A stretch of 6,564 bases of DNA, from positions 1 through 6,564 of the forward strand of contig JACQGZ010000151.1 in assembly GCA_016199305.1 (NCBI GenBank), read 5' to 3'. Below, one piece after another: positions 651-6,384 of this stretch. Under the pieces are notes generated by a model. It saw nothing but the letters and a program-made list of their open reading frames with translations. It was not told the origin of the DNA and searched no databases. Each line of letters opens with the position of its first letter. Within the stretch, counting starts at the first letter, position 1. This stretch comes from Armatimonadota bacterium (GTDB lineage: Bacteria > Sysuimicrobiota > Sysuimicrobiia > Sysuimicrobiales > Humicultoraceae). The position numbers and the translations under genes are program-made.

Positions 651-697
651 GCCGGCGATCCTCCGGCTGGCCCAGCCCGGGACCCGATCAGCCGGGC
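651..697. terminator. two small hairpins between convergent genes, possible weak bidirectional terminator
   Basis: The gap between the cyclase stop (648) and the hom stop (688) contains GCCGG 651-655 pairing with CCGGC 663-667, and GCCCGG 675-680 pairing with CCGGGC 692-697. The second arm reaches into the last hom codons. Neither hairpin is followed by a T-run on either strand, so this is not a canonical intrinsic terminator. The position between convergent genes is the main support. Confidence 0.25.
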
Positions 698-2034
698 CGG
701 GGTTCCTGCTCCTGCACCCGAAGCACCGGCCCGACGGCGGCGACGACGTCCATGGCGCGCAGGCGCGAAACGACGCGCTGCACGGCGCCGTCAGGCGCCT
801 CGTGGGTCATCAGGACCACGTCGGCAGTCTCTCCACGGCTCTTCTGCACGATGCTGGCCAGGCTGACCATCTCCTCTCCGAAGACCGCCGCGACCTTGGC
901 GAAGACCCCGGGACGATCCACCACCTCCAGGAAGAGGCAGGAGGGGACCACAAGATCGCCGATGGGGAGGACCGGCCGCGCCAGAAAAGTGCTGTCCCTC
1001 ACGGGCCATGCCCCGCTCCCCCGCCCGTCAGCCGCCTCAATAATGTCCCCCAGGACGACCACCGCCGTGGGCGTCCCGCCAGCCCCGGGGCCGCTGAACA
1101 GGATCGGGCCGGTGGCCGCGCCCGTCACCAGCACGGCGTTGCGCTCGTCGCGGATGGTCGCCAGCGGGTGAGTCAGCGGCAGCAATGTGGGGTGGACGCG
1201 GCAGTCGAGGCCCCCATCGCGCTCGGCGGCAATGGCGAGCAGTTTGACTGCGTACCCCAGCTGCCGAGCGTAGGCGATCTCCCGCGGCCCGATGGCCGCG
1301 ATGCCGTCGCGGTACACCTGCTCCGCCGTCACCGGCGCATGAAACGCCACCGTGGCTAGGATCGCCAGCTTGGCCGCGGCGTCGTGTCCGTCAAGATCCT
1401 CGTCCGGGTCGGCCTCCGCGAAGCCATGCTCTTGCGCGGCCGCCAGGGCGTGCTCGAAGGTCCACCCCTCCTCACTCATCCGCGTGAGGATGTAGTTGGT
1501 CGTCCCATTCAGGATCCCGGTGATGGCGTGGATCCGATCTGCGGCCAGCGACTCCCGCAGCGGCTTGATCAGCGGAATGGCGCCGCCGACAGCCGCCTCG
1601 AAATAGAGACCTACGCCGCTGGTGTCAGCCAGGCGCAGCAGTTCCGGCCCGTGGGTCCCGAGGAGGCGTTTGTTCGCCGTCACCACAGGCCTGCCCAACG
1701 CAAGCGCCCGGCGAATATACGTGTAGGCCGGCTCCACGCCGCCCATGACCTCAACGACCACATCAACACCCTCATCCTGCACGACCGCCCAGCCGTCATC
1801 GACGAGCCGATCGGGAGGAACGGGGACCCTTCTGGGCTTGTCGCGGCGAGCGACCGCCACCTTCGCCACTTCGAGCCGTCGGCCGGTCCGATGCGTGATC
1901 AGATCCGCGTGCTCGCGGAGCAACCGGAGCACCTCGCCACCGACGGTGCCGCAGCCCAGCAGGCCGATGTGAACGACGCCGGGATCCGGCCGTGGTCCGG
2001 CGCGCCGCGATGATCGGACCAGACGCTCGCTCAC
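688..2034 (-). CDS. hom: homoserine dehydrogenase with C-terminal ACT domain
   Basis: This cytoplasmic enzyme (448 aa) reduces aspartate semialdehyde to homoserine with NAD(P)H, the branch point to threonine and methionine. Residues 22-33 carry the Rossmann motif (HIGLLGCGTVGG, GxGxxG at 27-32). TANKRLLG follows near 119-126, then GILNGTTNYIL at 173-183. The signature EADPDEDLDGHDAAAK at 207-222 includes the expected catalytic Asp218 and Lys222. Residues 368 to about 441 (FLEVVDRPGVFAKVAAVF...) form an ACT domain, the usual site of feedback control by threonine in this family. Length is normal for the ACT-containing form. The start is GTG 2034, which overlaps the stop of the sulfur-carrier gene by four bases (GTGA). 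No good Shine-Dalgarno lies upstream, so translational coupling is likely. About 20 Arg/Pro-rich residues precede the Rossmann fold, with no later start codon available. It is the last gene of the operon behind the SAM-type leader. Confidence 0.96.
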   Translation of the reverse strand: MSERLVRSSRRAGPRPDPGVVHIGLLGCGTVGGEVLRLLREHADLITHRTGRRLEVAKVAVARRDKPRRVPVPPDRLVDDGWAVVQDEGVDVVVEVMGGVEPAYTYIRRALALGRPVVTANKRLLGTHGPELLRLADTSGVGLYFEAAVGGAIPLIKPLRESLAADRIHAITGILNGTTNYILTRMSEEGWTFEHALAAAQEHGFAEADPDEDLDGHDAAAKLAILATVAFHAPVTAEQVYRDGIAAIGPREIAYARQLGYAVKLLAIAAERDGGLDCRVHPTLLPLTHPLATIRDERNAVLVTGAATGPILFSGPGAGGTPTAVVVLGDIIEAADGRGSGAWPVRDSTFLARPVLPIGDLVVPSCLFLEVVDRPGVFAKVAAVFGEEMVSLASIVQKSRGETADVVLMTHEAPDGAVQRVVSRLRAMDVVAAVGPVLRVQEQEPRPG

Positions 2035-2309
2035 GGGGAACCGCCGGCCATCGCAGGAATCATGGCGATCTCGGAGTCCGCACGCAGCGGCGTCAGTAGG
2101 CCGCGGCCGAGGCGCACATCCTCGCCGTCCACGAAGAGGTTGACGAATGGGTGGACCTGGCCGCTGCCATCAAAGACGCGCGGCCGCAGCCCCGGCCAGT
2201 GGCGGGTGAGCTCCTCCAGGGCCTCGCCCAGCGTCCGGCCGCCGACCGAGTCGGTGCGAGCTCCGTCGGCATACTGGCGTAGGGGGGTCGGAATCCGGAC
2301 GATCGCCAT
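2031..2309 (-). CDS. CysO-like MoaD/ThiS-family sulfur-carrier protein with Gly-Gly-Ser-Pro tail
   Basis: A small beta-grasp protein of 92 residues. It begins MAIVRIPTPLRQYADG and contains HPFVNLFVDGEDVR followed by the C-terminal IPAMAGGSP. This layout closely follows mycobacterial CysO (IPTxLR near the start, FVN-(V)-x-EDVR in the middle, a PAxAGG end), more than MoaD or ThiS. Such proteins are adenylated at the terminal glycine by an E1-like enzyme, converted to a thiocarboxylate and used as the sulfide donor. Here Ser-Pro follows the Gly-Gly, so the tail would need trimming before activation. An upstream GTG at 2312 is in frame (two starts in tandem, GTG-ATG). ATG 2309 is preferred because GGAGG lies 6 bases before it, against 3 for the GTG. 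The ATG overlaps the thrC-like stop by one base (TGATG), and its own stop overlaps the hom start (GTGA). No E1 or JAMM protease is in the window. Position between a ThrC-like enzyme and hom suggests a sulfur-transfer role in methionine or cysteine supply (inference). Confidence 0.9.
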   Translation of the reverse strand: MAIVRIPTPLRQYADGARTDSVGGRTLGEALEELTRHWPGLRPRVFDGSGQVHPFVNLFVDGEDVRLGRGLLTPLRADSEIAMIPAMAGGSP

Positions 2310-3577
2310 CACGCACCTCCCACCGCCTGCCCCGCCCGCGGCCGCACCTGAGCGAGCCCGGGCAGGACCTCCGCCTCGAAGGCCCCCAGCGTCGCACGGA
2401 TCTTCACCGGCTCCCGCAGCGTCCCGGCGACGCTCTCCTGCGTCTTCAGCCCAATACCAGTCAGGTAGACGACGATGACGTCATCGGGCCCGAAGATCCC
2501 GCCCGCGGCCAGCCGGCGGAGCGCCGCCACGGCGACACCGCCGGCGGTCTCGGTGAAGACCCCCTCGCGGGCGGCTACCTCCCGGACGGCAGCGACCGCC
2601 TCCGCGTCGGTGACCTCCACCGCCACCCCGCCGCTGCGCCGGATCGCTTCCAGCGCATAGCGGCCGTCGGCGGGGTTGCCGATGGCTAGGGAATGCGCGA
2701 TCGTCTGCGGCCGCACCGGGCGCACCGACTCGCTCCCCTCCCGGTAGGCGGCGACGATGGGCGCGCACCCGGAGGGCTGGGCGCCGTGGACGCGCACACG
2801 GGCGGGCGGAACGATTCCAAGCTCCACCAGCTCGGCGAAGGCCCGCTCAATCTTCAGCAGCAGATTACCGGAGGCCAGGGGGATGACCACGTGATCGGGC
2901 AGGCGCCAGCCGAGTTGCTCGGCCACCTCGTAGCCGAGGGTCTTCGCCCCCTCGCTGTAGTAGGGCCGGAGGTTGACGTTGACGAAGCCCCACGGGTACT
3001 CGTCGGCCACCTGCGCGCAGAGGCGGTTGACGTCGTCATAGGTGCCGTCCACCTCCACGATCGTCGCACCGTAGACGGCCGAGAGCACCTGCTTCCCGGC
3101 CTCCAGCCCCTCGGGGACAAAGACGCACGCCTGTATCCCCGCCCGCGCCGCGTGCGCCGCCACGGAGTTGGCCAGGTTGCCGGTGGAGGCGCAGGCGAGG
3201 ACCTGAAAACCGAACTGCCGCGCCGCCGCGACCCCCAGGGTGACGACGCGGTCCTTGAACGACCAGGTGGGATTGCACCCGTCATTCTTGAGGAAGAGGC
3301 GCCGGAGCCCGAGGTTCCCGCCCAGTGTGGAGGCGTGCACCAGCGGGGTAAGCCCGGCGCCCAGGTCCGCGACGGGGTCGTGAGCCACCGGGAGGAGGTC
3401 CTCATAGCGCCACAGCGACGCCGGGCCCGCCCCGATGCGCGCGCGAAGCGCCTCCGCATCGACCGCCGGGCGCGGCCGCTCCGTCTCCAATGGGCCAAGG
3501 CACTCCTCACAGACGTACTGCGGGGCGAGAGTGTACGTGCGGCCGCAGTTGCGGCAGCGCAGGGCGTGTGCAGGCAT
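2309..3577 (-). CDS. thrC: threonine-synthase-like PLP enzyme with N-terminal zinc ribbon (paralogue 1, sulfur-carrier-linked)
   Basis: The 422-residue protein is a fold-type II PLP enzyme of the threonine synthase family, which normally converts O-phosphohomoserine to threonine. Residues 8-26 hold two CxxC pairs (C8/C11, C23/C26), a zinc-ribbon-like knuckle seen in longer threonine synthases. SLWRYEDLLPV (54-64) and GLTPL (75-79) precede the PLP lysine in NPTWSFKDR (Lys108). CASTGNLANS (129-138) contacts substrate and cofactor in the family. NLRPYYSEGAKT lies at 202-213. The phosphate-binding loop is ASGNLL (235-240) rather than VGNGGN. The start is ATG 3577, with GGAGGGG seven bases upstream; an in-frame TTG at 3610 sits in a hairpin loop and is less likely. 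The stop overlaps the sulfur-carrier start (TGATG). It is the first gene behind the SAM-type leader. The classical paralogue at 3848-4942 makes a second plain threonine synthase look redundant, so this one may use O-phosphohomoserine for homocysteine instead (inference). Family assignment is strong; the reaction is open. Confidence 0.93.
   Translation of the reverse strand: MPAHALRCRNCGRTYTLAPQYVCEECLGPLETERPRPAVDAEALRARIGAGPASLWRYEDLLPVAHDPVADLGAGLTPLVHASTLGGNLGLRRLFLKNDGCNPTWSFKDRVVTLGVAAARQFGFQVLACASTGNLANSVAAHAARAGIQACVFVPEGLEAGKQVLSAVYGATIVEVDGTYDDVNRLCAQVADEYPWGFVNVNLRPYYSEGAKTLGYEVAEQLGWRLPDHVVIPLASGNLLLKIERAFAELVELGIVPPARVRVHGAQPSGCAPIVAAYREGSESVRPVRPQTIAHSLAIGNPADGRYALEAIRRSGGVAVEVTDAEAVAAVREVAAREGVFTETAGGVAVAALRRLAAGGIFGPDDVIVVYLTGIGLKTQESVAGTLREPVKIRATLGAFEAEVLPGLAQVRPRAGQAVGGA
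2315..2320 (-). promoter_or_regulatory. ribosome binding site of the sulfur-carrier gene, decides ATG 2309
   Basis: GGAGGT on the minus strand (2320-2315) lies inside the last codons of the thrC-like gene. Counting from GGAGG, it is 6 bases from ATG 2309 but only 3 from the upstream GTG 2312. The spacing favours the ATG. Confidence 0.7.
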
Positions 3578-3693
3578 CCGGTCCCCTCCGATCACGGTCG
3601 CGGGCGCCAATAGAAGCGCCCGCCTCTCACATCAGGAGAGCCGGGCCTGTGTCGATCGGACATTCTTGCCGCCGGCAAGGGAGCCTGCCGGGA
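3578..3693 (-). promoter_or_regulatory. leader segment between aptamer and thrC paralogue 1 (candidate expression platform)
   Basis: On the minus strand this stretch can form three successive hairpins: CCGGCA/TGCCGG (3691-3686 with 3677-3672), CTCTC/GAGAG (3640-3636 with 3628-3624) and a perfect 8-bp GCGGGCGC/GCGCCCGC (3623-3616 with 3607-3600). None is followed by a T-run, so control by transcription termination is not obvious. Two 7-base segments are complementary to the ribosome-binding region. CGGTCCC (3696-3690) matches GGGACCG at 3585-3579, and TCCGATC (3660-3654) matches GATCGGA at 3593-3587. A translational switch is therefore possible. The pairings are directly visible; their use in the cell is inference. 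Confidence 0.45.
3583..3589 (-). promoter_or_regulatory. ribosome binding site of thrC paralogue 1
   Basis: GGAGGGG on the minus strand (3589-3583) has good spacing to ATG 3577 and none useful for the upstream TTG 3610, which fixes the start. Its two flanks can pair with separate upstream leader segments, at 3654-3660 and 3690-3696. Confidence 0.8.
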
Positions 3694-3780
3694 CCGCATC
3701 CCCGCGAGGAGCGGGAAGGCACCTTGGCTGTCCGTTCCAGGTTGCCGGGCCCACGATTGAGTGGGCCTCTCCCGATGCGA
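3694..3780 (-). promoter_or_regulatory. SAM-I/SAM-IV clan riboswitch aptamer (variant)
   Basis: Read on the minus strand, the segment folds as a four-way junction. P1 is GCATC (3778-3774) with GATGC (3700-3696), extendable by two pairs. The joining strand is GGGAGA (3773-3768). P2 is GGCCCAC (3767-3761) with GTGGGCC (3754-3748). GGCAACC (3746-3740) leads into P3, where ACCTGG pairs with CCA and GGT (one bulged A). AGGTGCC (3724-3718) is followed by TTCC and then P4, CCCGC (3715-3711) with GCGGG (3705-3701). The paired motifs GGCAACC and AGGTGC, in this order around P3, are the hallmark of SAM-I/SAM-IV riboswitches and form the SAM pocket. Unlike canonical SAM-I, P2 is a plain hairpin without room for the kink-turn, and the second joining strand is shorter than GGTGCCAATTCC. 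The placement at the transcription start, upstream of thrC-like, sulfur-carrier and hom genes, fits repression by SAM. Covariation support is unavailable here. Confidence 0.75.
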
Positions 3781-3784
3781 GCAC

Positions 3785-3813
3785 AGTATCGCACGGAGGT
3801 CGCGGCCTGTCAA
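3785..3813 (-). promoter_or_regulatory. sigma-70-type promoter of the thrC-like/sulfur carrier/hom operon
   Basis: On the minus strand a perfect -35 box TTGACA (3813-3808) is followed after exactly 17 bases by GATACT (3790-3785), which matches TATAAT at four of six positions including A2 and T6. The expected start falls near 3778-3779, the first bases of riboswitch helix P1. The -35 box begins about 35 bases after the stop of the upstream threonine synthase, so this operon has its own promoter, though read-through from upstream is possible. Confidence 0.8.
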
Positions 3814-3847: not shown

Positions 3848-4942
3848 TCAGGCGAGAAGCCGCTCCACCACCGTGCTCAATGCCTCAACCGTTCGGGCGA
3901 CGGTGGGAAGAAGAGACGGGGCCAGAGGCGGCGGATCCTTTAAGCCGTGGCCGGTGAGGATGCAGACGGCGACCTCGCCGGAAAAGGGCCGAGCGGCCGC
4001 CAGTAGCTGCAGGCCGGCCAGCGCAGCGGCCGACGCCGGTTCCACGAGCAGGCCCTCCCCGGCCGCCAGCTCGCGTCGCGCCGCGAGGATTGCGTCATCG
4101 GCGACCTTGACGAAGCGGCCTCCCGACGCCCGCGCCGCCTCCACCGCGCCCTCCCAGGAGGCGGGGCGGCCGATGCGGATGGCGGTGGCCACGGTCCGAG
4201 GCGATGTCACGGGGTGGCCGTCGACAAGAGGGGCGGCACCCTCGGCCTGCACTCCTACCATCTGCGGGAGCGCCGTAAGCCGGCCGGCCTGCCGGTACTC
4301 CTGAAATCCACGCCAGCAAGCCGTGATATTGCCGCCGTTGCCGACCGGCAGCACCAGCAGGTCGGGTGCCCGCCCGAGGGCGTCAACGATCTCAAAGGCG
4401 ACGGTCTTCTGTCCCTCCAGGCGGTAGGGGTTGACCGAATTCACGAGCGTGAGGCCGGCCCGCGCCGCGAGCTCCCGTGTGGCGGCCAGGGCTGCGTCGA
4501 AGCCAGCCTCGACGGCGACGACCCGTGCCCCGTGCGCGACCACCTGCCCCAGTTTCCCTGCGGCGACCCCGTCGGCGGGAAGGACGATCACGCAGGGCAG
4601 CGAAGCCCGCGCGGCGTACGCGGCCGCAGAGGCGGCGGTGTTGCCGGTGGAGGCGCACACCACCGCGCGGCTGCCGGCCTCCAGAGCCTTCGACACGGCC
4701 ACCGTCATCCCCCGATCCTTGAAGGAACCCGTGGGGTTGGCGGCCTCAAATTTGAAGAAGAGCCGTAGCCCGAGGCGCGCCCCAAGTCTCTTTGATGGGA
4801 TGAGCGGGGTGCGCCCCTCCTGCAGGGTCACCACCGGTGTGGCCGCGGTGACCGGGAGGAAATCGCGGTAGGCCTCGATCACCCCGGGCCACGCCATCGC
4901 CGCCGTCAGGGCGTGGCCGGAGGAGGAATCGTCCGGCATCAT
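3848..4942 (-). CDS. thrC: threonine synthase, classical actinobacterial-type (paralogue 2)
   Basis: This 364-residue PLP enzyme converts O-phosphohomoserine to threonine in the cytoplasm. WPGVIEAYRDFLPV (18-31) and EGRTPL (42-47) start the catalytic core. NPTGSFKDRG (69-78) carries the PLP Lys75. CASTGNTAAS lies at 96-105, NSVNPYRLEGQKT at 168-180, and the phosphate loop VGNGGN at 200-205. EPASAA and TGHGLKDP near the C-terminus complete the family pattern. There is no zinc ribbon, and the length equals the roughly 360-residue actinobacterial enzymes. The frame stays open upstream to 5236, but that part overlaps the membrane protein and lacks family similarity. The start is therefore placed at the tandem ATG-ATG: ATG 4942 overlaps the membrane-protein stop as ATGA, and ATG 4939 is the alternative (363 aa). 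No Shine-Dalgarno precedes either, so coupling to the upstream gene is likely. It differs strongly from paralogue 1. Confidence 0.95.
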   Translation of the reverse strand: MMPDDSSSGHALTAAMAWPGVIEAYRDFLPVTAATPVVTLQEGRTPLIPSKRLGARLGLRLFFKFEAANPTGSFKDRGMTVAVSKALEAGSRAVVCASTGNTAASAAAYAARASLPCVIVLPADGVAAGKLGQVVAHGARVVAVEAGFDAALAATRELAARAGLTLVNSVNPYRLEGQKTVAFEIVDALGRAPDLLVLPVGNGGNITACWRGFQEYRQAGRLTALPQMVGVQAEGAAPLVDGHPVTSPRTVATAIRIGRPASWEGAVEAARASGGRFVKVADDAILAARRELAAGEGLLVEPASAAALAGLQLLAAARPFSGEVAVCILTGHGLKDPPPLAPSLLPTVARTVEALSTVVERLLA

Positions 4943-6384
4943 CGAGCCAGGAGGATCGGGAGGGTGAGGGCGATCACCGCCACCAGCGCCCACAGCGCCG
5001 GCGCCGAAGTCAGCACCTGCTCCCGCCGCCGCGCCACGCGCGCCGCCTCGACCTTCGAGCGGGGAGTCCACCAGGGATTGTGGCGGGCCTCGAGGAGGTG
5101 AAAGATCACGCCCAGGGCGGCGCCGTAGGCCAGGTGTCCGATCAGATACGGGAACAGCTCCGCCGCCGCCTCGACCCTCCATCGCGGCGCCGATCCCAGG
5201 AAGAGCGGCGTCAAGGTGAGCGGCCCCAACACCCACCAGAGGAACCCATAGGAGATCCCCCAGCCGAGACCCGAGCCGACGTCGTAACTCTGGCGGCGGA
5301 ACAGGAATCCGTAACTGATCCCGATCGCCTGCGCCACCACCACCTGAGCGATCAGGCCCCAGATCGACGAGGAGCCGACCACGCCGCGCATCGCCGCCAG
5401 GCCGCCGATCTGCACGATCACCAGCGCGAAGAGCGCGCCGCCAATCAGGCCCGCCAGCGCGCCGCGGCCCAGCGCGCGCAGCCCTTCGGTCCCCACCCCC
5501 TCCTCGTCGCGGGCGCCGACCATGTCCGAGAAGAGGAGCCGGCCCAGTCCGTCCAGCCAGGCGTAGAACAGCGCCGTCGCGGCGCCGAAGAGCAGGTAGC
5601 CCGGCAGCATGGAAAAGTCCCCCAGCGCGGATCCCGCCGCGGGTTCACCGCCGCCCCGGGCCCCCGGCAATGGCGCGAGCGAACCGATCACCCACCAGCA
5701 AAAGCCATAGACCATGCCGCGGATGAGGCCGGGACCGCTGCCATCGGGCGGGTGGGGATAGAGCAGCGCGTACCCGGCGCCCGCGAGCGCCCCCATCAGC
5801 AGGATGACGACCCAGCCGGGCCACGCGCCGCTCATCATCGAGGGGAGCGTGGTCAGCAGCCCCTGCGCCTCCAGCATCAGCCTCAGCAGTGAGCCGCCCA
5901 TCAGCCCGGCCAGCACGCCACGCAACACGGCTCCCGCCCGCGCCCCGCTCCCGGTCGGGCGGCGGTCCCGACGGATCAGCGCCAGGGTGAGTCCCGTCAC
6001 ACCGCCGTAGAGGAGATAGCCCAGGAGGCTGGGGAAGGCCTCCTGCGCCGAGTGGAGGTCCCAGGCCAGAAAACCGAGCAGCCACAGCGACATCAGCGTG
6101 AGCGGTCCGAGGAACCAGCACAGCGCGCCGTAGGTCAGCCCCCAGAACAGCGTCTCCCCGGCCCCGGCGCGCTGGTGCCAGACCAGCACCCCGAACCCGG
6201 CGCCGAGGACGATGCCGAAGAGCACGTGGAGAACGAAACCCGCAGCGGCCGCATCCGCGCGCACCAGCGACGCGGTGGGTGGCAGCGCGCCCAGCCGGGA
6301 GAGCGCCGCCGCCGAAATCGCGCCCCCCAGCAGCCCGGCGAGGGCGCCGGGTGCGATCCCGCCGCGCAGAAGGCCGGTCCTCAC
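4939..6384 (-). CDS. polytopic membrane protein with three tandem multi-helix repeats, function unknown
   Basis: I do not recognise a family for this 481-residue, very hydrophobic protein. It is built from three copies of one unit of about 125-130 residues. Each begins with a G-x-LAGLxGG motif (13-21, 156-164, 308-316). About 70 residues later comes YG-x-x-x-W-x-x-G (85-93, 226-234, 379-387), and about 37 residues further a GYLLYG-like helix (GYLLYG 122-127, GYLLFG 262-267, GHLAYG 416-421). Each unit has room for about four membrane helices. A charged linker (roughly 433-455, rich in Arg) leads to a final helix at about 460-479 ending in ILLAR. The start is GTG 6384, overlapping the NADH dehydrogenase stop as GTGA, with a strong GGGGAGG seven bases upstream. 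The stop overlaps the threonine synthase start. Translation next to a type II NADH dehydrogenase suggests a partner at the membrane, but no redox motifs (heme His pairs, Cys clusters) stand out. Confidence 0.88.
   Translation of the reverse strand: MRTGLLRGGIAPGALAGLLGGAISAAALSRLGALPPTASLVRADAAAAGFVLHVLFGIVLGAGFGVLVWHQRAGAGETLFWGLTYGALCWFLGPLTLMSLWLLGFLAWDLHSAQEAFPSLLGYLLYGGVTGLTLALIRRDRRPTGSGARAGAVLRGVLAGLMGGSLLRLMLEAQGLLTTLPSMMSGAWPGWVVILLMGALAGAGYALLYPHPPDGSGPGLIRGMVYGFCWWVIGSLAPLPGARGGGEPAAGSALGDFSMLPGYLLFGAATALFYAWLDGLGRLLFSDMVGARDEEGVGTEGLRALGRGALAGLIGGALFALVIVQIGGLAAMRGVVGSSSIWGLIAQVVVAQAIGISYGFLFRRQSYDVGSGLGWGISYGFLWWVLGPLTLTPLFLGSAPRWRVEAAAELFPYLIGHLAYGAALGVIFHLLEARHNPWWTPRSKVEAARVARRREQVLTSAPALWALVAVIALTLPILLAR
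5089..5466 (-). repeat. membrane repeat unit 3 (residues 307-432)
   Basis: Third repeat, closest to unit 1 in its middle. Anchors are GALAGLIGG (308-316), YGFLWWVLGPLTL (379-391) and FPYLIGHLAYGA (411-422). The acidic AAAELFPYLIG stretch parallels AQEAFPSLLG of unit 1. Confidence 0.8.
5554..5922 (-). repeat. membrane repeat unit 2 (residues 155-277)
   Basis: Second repeat, the most diverged. Anchors are GVLAGLMGG (156-164), YGFCWWVIGSLAPL (226-239) and PGYLLFGA (261-268). A Gly/Ala-rich insert at about 241-252 replaces part of the loop seen in units 1 and 3. Confidence 0.78.
5974..6366 (-). repeat. membrane repeat unit 1 (residues 7-137)
   Basis: First of three protein-level repeats. Anchors are GALAGLLGG (13-21), YGALCWFLGPLTL (85-97) and PSLLGYLLYGG (118-128). 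Confidence 0.8.

Follow-up and report, generated by a model that had tools for sequence, protein, structure and literature searches.

A predicted MetM/MetO-type operon for homocysteine synthesis, with its own homoserine dehydrogenase gene, in a bacterium related to Armatimonadota

The 6,564-nucleotide stretch of contig JACQGZ010000151.1 analyzed here (the window) carries on its minus strand a putative operon (688-3646) in which a threonine-synthase-like enzyme (ThrC2), a small sulfur carrier, and homoserine dehydrogenase (Hom) follow a predicted S-adenosylmethionine (SAM) riboswitch. Judging from sequence comparisons, the role of this operon is very probably to make homocysteine from O-phosphohomoserine, sulfur being supplied by the carrier. 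The proposed chemistry has a published precedent that was missed by the original prediction for this DNA, namely MetM/MetO of Streptomyces albulus, as described in a citing paper (PMC12172450). The window is filed as a predicted member of this already known MetM/MetO kind, with hom in the operon, because the reported MetM/MetO features match and because Nonomuraea has the same gene order; the route itself is not new.

According to PMC12172450, Hasebe et al. 2024 (doi 10.1128/aem.01247-24) identified MetM as a Streptomyces homocysteine synthase that acts on O-phosphohomoserine and has a SAM riboswitch upstream. PMC12172450 also names metO of S. albulus, whose relative in Microcystis carries a sulfur-carrier-family annotation. 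Compared by these reported features, the window shares the ThrC-like enzyme, the upstream SAM riboswitch, and the sulfur-carrier gene. It differs from what that source reports of S. albulus in that hom is part of an overlapping operon, the phylum is another, the leader is SAM-I/IV-like rather than SAM-I, and the carrier has a Ser-Pro tail. In the actinomycete Nonomuraea gerenzanensis, riboswitch, ThrC2, and carrier follow in the same order, and ThrC2 is 51.5% identical to the window's; taken as a stand-in for S. albulus MetM, this enzyme falls inside the ThrC2 group of our tree (branch support 55). When the Nonomuraea enzyme was used as the query, the best 120 matches listed were mostly from Nonomuraea and Streptosporangium, with none named Streptomyces. 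Within the plasmid collection, MetM-like identity was found only in Nonomuraea.

The original prediction described a ThrC-like enzyme, a CysO-like carrier, and Hom overlapping end to end behind a SAM-type leader, next to a classical threonine synthase (ThrC1). Our analysis confirmed the genes, their families, and their boundaries, with overlaps of 4 bases each between Hom and the carrier and between the carrier and ThrC2, and it confirmed the neighboring threonine synthase (Table 1; boundaries are taken at the longest reading). ThrC2 scores 279 bits against the TIGR00260 thrC model (cut-off, 167), and the carrier scores 40.2 bits against Pfam ThiS (cut-off, 22.5). By sequence, the ATG start of ThrC2 at 3577 is preceded by a GGAGG site, and an alternative upstream start, TTG at 3610, would fall within the leader structure.

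The SAM-type leader was borne out by a slightly subthreshold match that recurs in relatives. The aptamer match to RF01725 lies 2.5 bits below the gathering threshold of 41.1 (E value of 5e-5 in a focused 301-base scan) and was not reported when the whole window was scanned at gathering. At the same position in G005 and G003, the window's closest relatives (loci L084 and L085; G, L, and f numbers are our labels for genomes, loci, and families), SAM-I/IV matches of 35.8 and 33.8 bits were found, both also below gathering, and the aptamer core is largely identical across all three. In the window the aptamer is followed by a terminator-like hairpin, and a hairpin is predicted at the corresponding position of L084 and L085 as well. 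The leader (3574-3790) is more stable than all 200 shuffled versions (z = -3.8), and the minimum-energy fold of the entire leader is not simply the aptamer fold. One family has two riboswitch classes before the ThrC2 gene or operon: SAM-I/IV-like in three genera (the window, L084, and L085) and classical SAM-I in two others (L089 and L092).

The gene pair is widely conserved. A phylum search that allowed up to 120 genomes with ≥85% completeness returned 36, all of the window's order and including its own genome, which is 69% complete. ThrC2 is held by 31 of them, and 30 loci were fetched; left out were the G024 match and the additional copy in G020. In a scan of named genomes with the carrier, 26 of the best 80 of 326 relatives adjoin ThrC2, one of them (L004) only a fragment of it; the 56 ThrC2 loci counted here comprise the 30 phylum loci, 25 of these 26, and Nonomuraea. 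The carrier lies within 700 bases of ThrC2 on the same strand in 48 of the 56. In each of the 47 complete carriers the domain ends in AGG; 16 stop there, and the others continue with tails of 1 to 65 residues; relatives of the window's carrier reach 74% identity. By the titles of draft-genome records, which can be wrong, the pair occurs in at least eight phyla besides the window's own, whose closest named relatives are Armatimonadota; the titles name Chloroflexota, Actinomycetota, Verrucomicrobiota, Omnitrophota, Planctomycetota, Deltaproteobacteria/Myxococcota, Dormibacteraeota, and, in one record, "Bacillota".

Most ThrC2 genes follow a SAM riboswitch on their own strand: 42 of the 56 loci show one upstream (26 of the 30 within the phylum and 15 of the 25 elsewhere, plus Nonomuraea); three of the 26 are SAM-I/IV matches below gathering, and three appeared only when more upstream DNA was included. 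A thrB-like (homoserine kinase) gene directly precedes ThrC2 in 17 of the 30 phylum loci. Four of these 17 genes were tested and all exceed the TIGR00191 cut-off, and Pfam assigns a fifth to the GHMP kinases. In G014, G011, and G012, a single riboswitch heads the order hom-thrB-thrC2-carrier, which would lead via O-phosphohomoserine to homocysteine; the thrB of each passes the TIGR00191 cut-off, and hom in G012 is confirmed by Pfam.

ThrC2 forms an enzyme class of its own beside the housekeeping enzyme. The survey covered 80 genomes, 36 of the window's phylum and 44 reached through carrier loci, and the best ThrC2-match score is bimodal: 63 genomes (the holders) score at least 319 bits and 17 score below 246. 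Two of the holders, G072 and G073 (331 bits), sit outside the main ThrC2 group in the tree. This tree of 76 proteins places 57 ThrC2 on one side of a single branch (support 55), and the window's ThrC1 groups with 11 ThrC1 from other genomes (support 100); the window's genome holds both enzymes, which are separate in this tree. Asn202, Arg204, and Tyr207 are present in 57 of 57 ThrC2, where ThrC1-type sequences mostly have Ser, Asn, and Arg (86 to 93% of 14 rows, two of which are placed elsewhere in the tree). Leu135, also in 57 of 57, replaces Thr; Trp224 is class-specific too; and Ser236 (89% of ThrC2) replaces Asn.

When aligned to PDB 1uim, residues N202, R204, Y207, L135, and S236 correspond to Thermus positions 155, 157, 160, 88, and 188, counted from Lys61, which we take to be the pyridoxal phosphate (PLP) lysine of the Thermus enzyme. 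Several of these positions presumably bind the substrate phosphate. Thr88, Ser155, Arg160, and Asn188, assumed here to be active-site residues of classical ThrC, are replaced in the window's ThrC2 by L135, N202, Y207, and S236. The fold class predicted for ThrC2 is clear from its sequence. Two other family assignments for ThrC2 were rejected: cysteate synthase (TIGR03844, only 54 bits against a cut-off of 325) and the cysKM family (TIGR01136, 46 bits against a cut-off of 344).

It is unlikely that ThrC2 is a threonine synthase, or an enzyme making both products, with a carrier that serves elsewhere or part-time. Such a role would fit with ThrC2 passing the TIGR00260 cut-off, with ThrC2 loci that have no carrier, and with the Microcystis relative of MetM considered below, but an ordinary ThrC adjoins the operon, and the predicted regulation is by a SAM riboswitch, not by threonine. 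Further, 57 of 57 ThrC2 have other residues where the Thermus enzyme has Ser155, Arg160, and Thr88. A second thrC over the model cut-off is present in 20 of the 21 holders without strong PF01053 matches (see below), G053 being the exception and the match in G036 being partial (193 bits).

The homocysteine reading agrees with the distribution of other routes to homocysteine. MetA (PF04204) or MetX occurs in 5 of the 63 holders (G027, G038, G041, G043, and G060) and in 11 of the 17 non-holders (Fisher test, 3e-6), in a test that ignores relatedness among genomes and with 44 extra-phylum genomes that were chosen by carrier, 26 of them because ThrC2 adjoins it. MetX was called at ≥200 bits against TIGR01392, a threshold of our own, because no genome, controls included, reached the model cut-off of 500. 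Within the window's family (f1), MetA is present in none of the five ThrC2 holders and in four of the five non-holders, the fifth (G004) having neither. The four MetA-bearing genomes belong to one genus (g6) and therefore probably represent one event; in all four, MetA adjoins a PF01053 gene. In G006, which does not have ThrC2, a SAM riboswitch precedes MetY (TIGR01326, 679 bits; cut-off, 495) and an acetyl-type MetA (484 bits; cut-off, 460.5) at L172 (G006:C20:12500-18500); the predicted regulation there is the same, the homocysteine route another. The exchange of MetA/MetY for ThrC2-carrier within one family is a clear pathway replacement.

PF01053 genes were counted at >100 bits; 74 of the 80 genomes pass the 27-bit Pfam cut-off. 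At the 100-bit level 21 of the 63 holders have no match, and MetA, as well as MetX at 200 bits, is missing from every one of these. DUF39 (PF01837) was found in 0 of the 80 genomes, the window's own 69% complete genome included, and the 21 holders lack all four homocysteine enzyme families searched. Their sub-100-bit PF01053 matches (partial, with E values of 5e-10 or worse) are read as other PLP-enzyme families. A MetH or MetE family candidate of >100 bits is present in 19 of the 21 (not in G040 or G059). ThrC2-carrier is a candidate route for these genomes, which could otherwise be mistaken for methionine auxotrophs. According to Price et al. 2018, at least one homocysteine route was still unknown, with Aquifex, Pyrolobus, and Acidimicrobium named (PMC5764234).

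The original prediction had linked the gene pair to the absence of standard homocysteine genes, and this link mainly held. MetA and MetX are indeed rarer in holders, but a few genomes have both routes; PF01053 genes are absent at the level used from the 21 holders but present in 30 of 31 holders within the phylum. Could a PF01053 enzyme that accepts O-phosphohomoserine, as a plant-like cystathionine gamma-synthase does, make the homocysteine, with ThrC2-carrier as an accessory? The phylum-wide presence of these genes, in the window's genome and in the other holders, without MetA, would fit such a scheme. It fails to account for the 21 holders, and neither of the two copies in the window's genome reaches a cut-off among the matches listed; they score best as methionine gamma-lyase and, for the copy at a contig end, as cystathionine gamma-synthase. 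The contig-end copy lies near a cystathionine beta-synthase gene, which passes its cut-off, and it therefore fits reverse transsulfuration. We regard this scheme as extremely improbable. Taken together, the SAM riboswitch, the co-operonic hom and thrB, the second thrC, and the MetA/MetX anticorrelation support at the genome level the homocysteine role that had been proposed, as far as sequence can indicate function. For the subsequent step, the methionine synthase candidates of the window's genome are a pair of neighboring PF01717 matches (163 and 60 bits) and an incomplete match to PF02574.

Among solved structures, the closest to the carrier is PDB 3dwg chain C (labelled 9.5 kDa culture filtrate antigen), which we take to be Mycobacterium CysO. 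CysM/CysO/Mec+ is the cysteine synthesis system of Mycobacterium. The window resembles it in the carrier family, in a PLP enzyme of PF00291, and in a JAMM-family gene in the genome, but its enzyme is ThrC-like, its neighbors are hom and, in relatives, thrB, and the genome has a separate CysM-like cluster. This cluster, on contig C162, holds PF01053, a second carrier, cystathionine beta-synthase, SbnI/SerK-like, CysM-like, JAMM-family, and Rrf2 genes; the SbnI/SerK-like gene is distant and below both cut-offs, and the CysM-like gene (350 bits; cut-off, 394) adjoins the JAMM-family gene (PF14464, 99 bits). In three Chloroflexi loci (L009, L049, and L073), ThrC2-carrier and CysM-like-carrier pairs stand side by side, with ThiF-like and Rrf2-like genes nearby (those of L073 were tested).

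The kinship with CysO, together with the membership of carriers beside CysM-like genes in the same family, would allow ThrC2 and its carrier to act as CysM does with CysO, converting O-phosphoserine to cysteine or to some other beta-substituted product. This is very improbable given the separate CysM-like, carrier, JAMM, and Rrf2 cluster in the window's genome, the coexistence of both sets in the three Chloroflexi loci, and the hom and thrB genes within the SAM-controlled operons of relatives. Cysteine synthesis, cysteate synthase, and plain threonine synthesis all ranked behind the homocysteine reading. In a carrier tree, the 48 carriers beside ThrC2 and the 35 beside CysM-like genes cluster by partner much more than shuffled labels do, with 8 and 9 changes compared with 35.5 and 29.6; another 25 carriers have neither neighbor by the rule we used. 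Two clean clades by partner are not formed, and the tree is poorly resolved because it has only 91 columns.

Genes for sulfur delivery accompany the pair. A ThiF-family gene is present in 32 of the 33 holders tested, including the window's own genome; in the exception, the f6 genome G035 (89% complete), both ThiS and ThiF family genes were searched and none was found. In other phyla, some loci have ThiF (8 loci), JAMM (5), TusA (3), or CysM-like (8) genes no more than a few kilobases from the pair (one member of each was tested).

From these components we propose the following scheme. Hom would form homoserine, which a homoserine kinase, encoded outside this operon and within the matching operon of relatives, would convert to O-phosphohomoserine. 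The JAMM protease, a candidate for trimming the carrier's tail, would remove the extra Ser-Pro, and a ThiF/MoeB-like enzyme with a sulfur donor would load a thiocarboxylate onto the GG end of the trimmed carrier. ThrC2 would then eliminate phosphate from O-phosphohomoserine, with the carrier's sulfur adding at the gamma carbon and not water at the beta carbon. Hydrolysis would free the carrier, and homocysteine would pass to methionine synthase. When SAM is abundant, transcription would stop at the leader hairpin. Thiocarboxylated MetO reportedly donates the sulfur in the Streptomyces pathway, which is said to operate in other bacteria too.

Several observations weigh against this reading, in addition to the two limits given above for the MetA/MetX comparison; the main doubts concern the Microcystis relative, loci in which carrier or riboswitch is missing, genomes that combine both routes, and the presence of PF01053 genes in the phylum of the window. 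A Microcystis ThrC that is 51.6% identical to MetM and has a metO-like neighbor is mainly a threonine synthase in vitro and is judged by its authors not to be fully MetM in the cell (PMC12172450). Eight loci have no adjacent carrier (L084, six of family f4, and one of f6), among them that of G005, the closest relative (77% identity). A SAM riboswitch was sought upstream of ThrC2 and not found in 14 of the 56 loci, in scans run mostly at gathering, which may therefore miss weak matches. Five of the 14 end at a contig edge (L096, L103, L105, L032, and L074), and nine are not cut in this way (L110, L005, L018, L053, L056, L062, L065, L072, and L078). The ThrC2-carrier pair is not exclusive, because G038 and G041 (SAR202/Chloroflexi records) and G060 combine ThrC2 and carrier with MetA and PF01053 genes. 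A MetX-like gene is present in G043 and G027, and a weaker one (181 bits), not counted, in the holder G069. The window's genome itself has two strong PF01053 matches, and the absence of MetA and MetX from it is weak because it is 69% complete; a parallel homocysteine route in this organism is possible.

Most of the carrier-free loci share one arrangement. In L087, L088, L093, L095, L097, and L101 (f4) and L099 (f6), a SAM riboswitch is followed by thrB and thrC2 with no adjacent carrier. The seven enzymes form one clade (support 99) and are possibly carrier-free homocysteine synthases, to judge from this context. A carrier-contact signature was sought and rejected: only positions 206 and 10 split these seven from 47 carrier-linked ThrC2, and they cannot be claimed as an interface because they are too few and shared ancestry alone could explain them. 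At position 206, Tyr is changed to Phe in all seven; L084, also without an adjacent carrier, keeps Tyr.

A small NIL-domain (PF09383) gene stands beside the pair in 15 loci (L003, L015, L023, L032, L041, L050, L051, L056, L059, L065, L066, L072, L073, L074, and L078) from six phyla by record title; eight of these genes were tested and all are NIL. The NIL-domain protein is possibly a third component or a methionine sensor. Tentatively, and with considerable doubt, MetM may be viewed as a modular homocysteine synthase whose sulfur-delivery part was swapped between lineages. As parts of that same joint proposal, the SAM-controlled thrB-thrC2 of the sister families f4 and f6 would have lost a private carrier and would use free sulfide or a shared CysO, and the NIL protein would have joined the enzyme-carrier pair in six other phyla as an unrecognized third component.

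Two further homocysteine systems invite comparison. Wolinella makes methionine via a protein thiocarboxylate, using a MetY-type enzyme (PF01053). The analogy with Wolinella drawn in the original prediction is apt as to carrier-borne sulfur for homocysteine, but it is looser than that with MetM/MetO because the enzyme belongs to another family: the window's is of the ThrC type, and none of the six window proteins scanned, those of the operon included, matches PF01053. A protein thiocarboxylate pathway is named in PMC5764234. The DUF39/NIL-ferredoxin system is likewise an alternative homocysteine route, and the 15 loci with a NIL-domain neighbor recall it; unlike the window's predicted pathway, it uses no homoserine (PMC5764234), and the PF01837 search above gave no match. 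For annotation, our results suggest that the name "threonine synthase" is often wrong for genes that adjoin a MoaD/ThiS gene and a SAM riboswitch, and they give an anatomy rule by which the two kinds of enzyme can be distinguished.

Table 1. Features of the predicted operon and its upstream neighbor (window coordinates)
Feature	Position	Strand	Family or score
ThrC2, threonine-synthase-like PLP enzyme with N-terminal CxxC...CxxC; predicted MetM-type	2309-3577	-	PF00291 (PALP), TIGR00260
ThiS/MoaD/CysO-family sulfur carrier, C-terminus PAMAGG-SP; predicted MetO	2031-2312	-	PF02597 (ThiS)
Homoserine dehydrogenase with ACT domain (Hom)	688-2034	-	PF00742, PF03447, PF01842; PRK06349, 498 bits
SAM-I/IV-like riboswitch aptamer (predicted)	3652-3783	-	Rfam RF01725, 38.6 bits
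Terminator-like hairpin between aptamer and start codon; predicted expression platform	3618-3646	-	found by sequence
ThrC1, ordinary threonine synthase, upstream of riboswitch; context, outside predicted pathway	3848-4942	-	TIGR00260, 297 bits

Read 5' to 3' on the minus strand, the order in the window is membrane-like protein, ThrC1, leader, ThrC2, carrier, and Hom. The first of these (4939-6384, minus strand) is a predicted membrane protein of 481 residues with repeated hydrophobic segments that overlaps ThrC1 by 4 bases; searches of Pfam and NCBIfam gave no match for it. At L169 (G034:C65), ThrC2 and carrier close a run of aspartate-family genes that begins with the end of a hom-like gene and continues with ThrC1 (L146) and with two genes that, as read from sequence, resemble thrB and an aspartate kinase gene; no riboswitch was found in 3.8 kb. 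The species name of L066, a record named Akkermansia muciniphila, is probably wrong because its ThrC2 is almost the same as the one in a Chthoniobacteraceae metagenome-assembled genome (L059). The record NZ_LT559118.1 is labelled a plasmid and is in effect probably a chromosome, because it is 11.85 Mb long and has a GroEL-like gene beside this operon.

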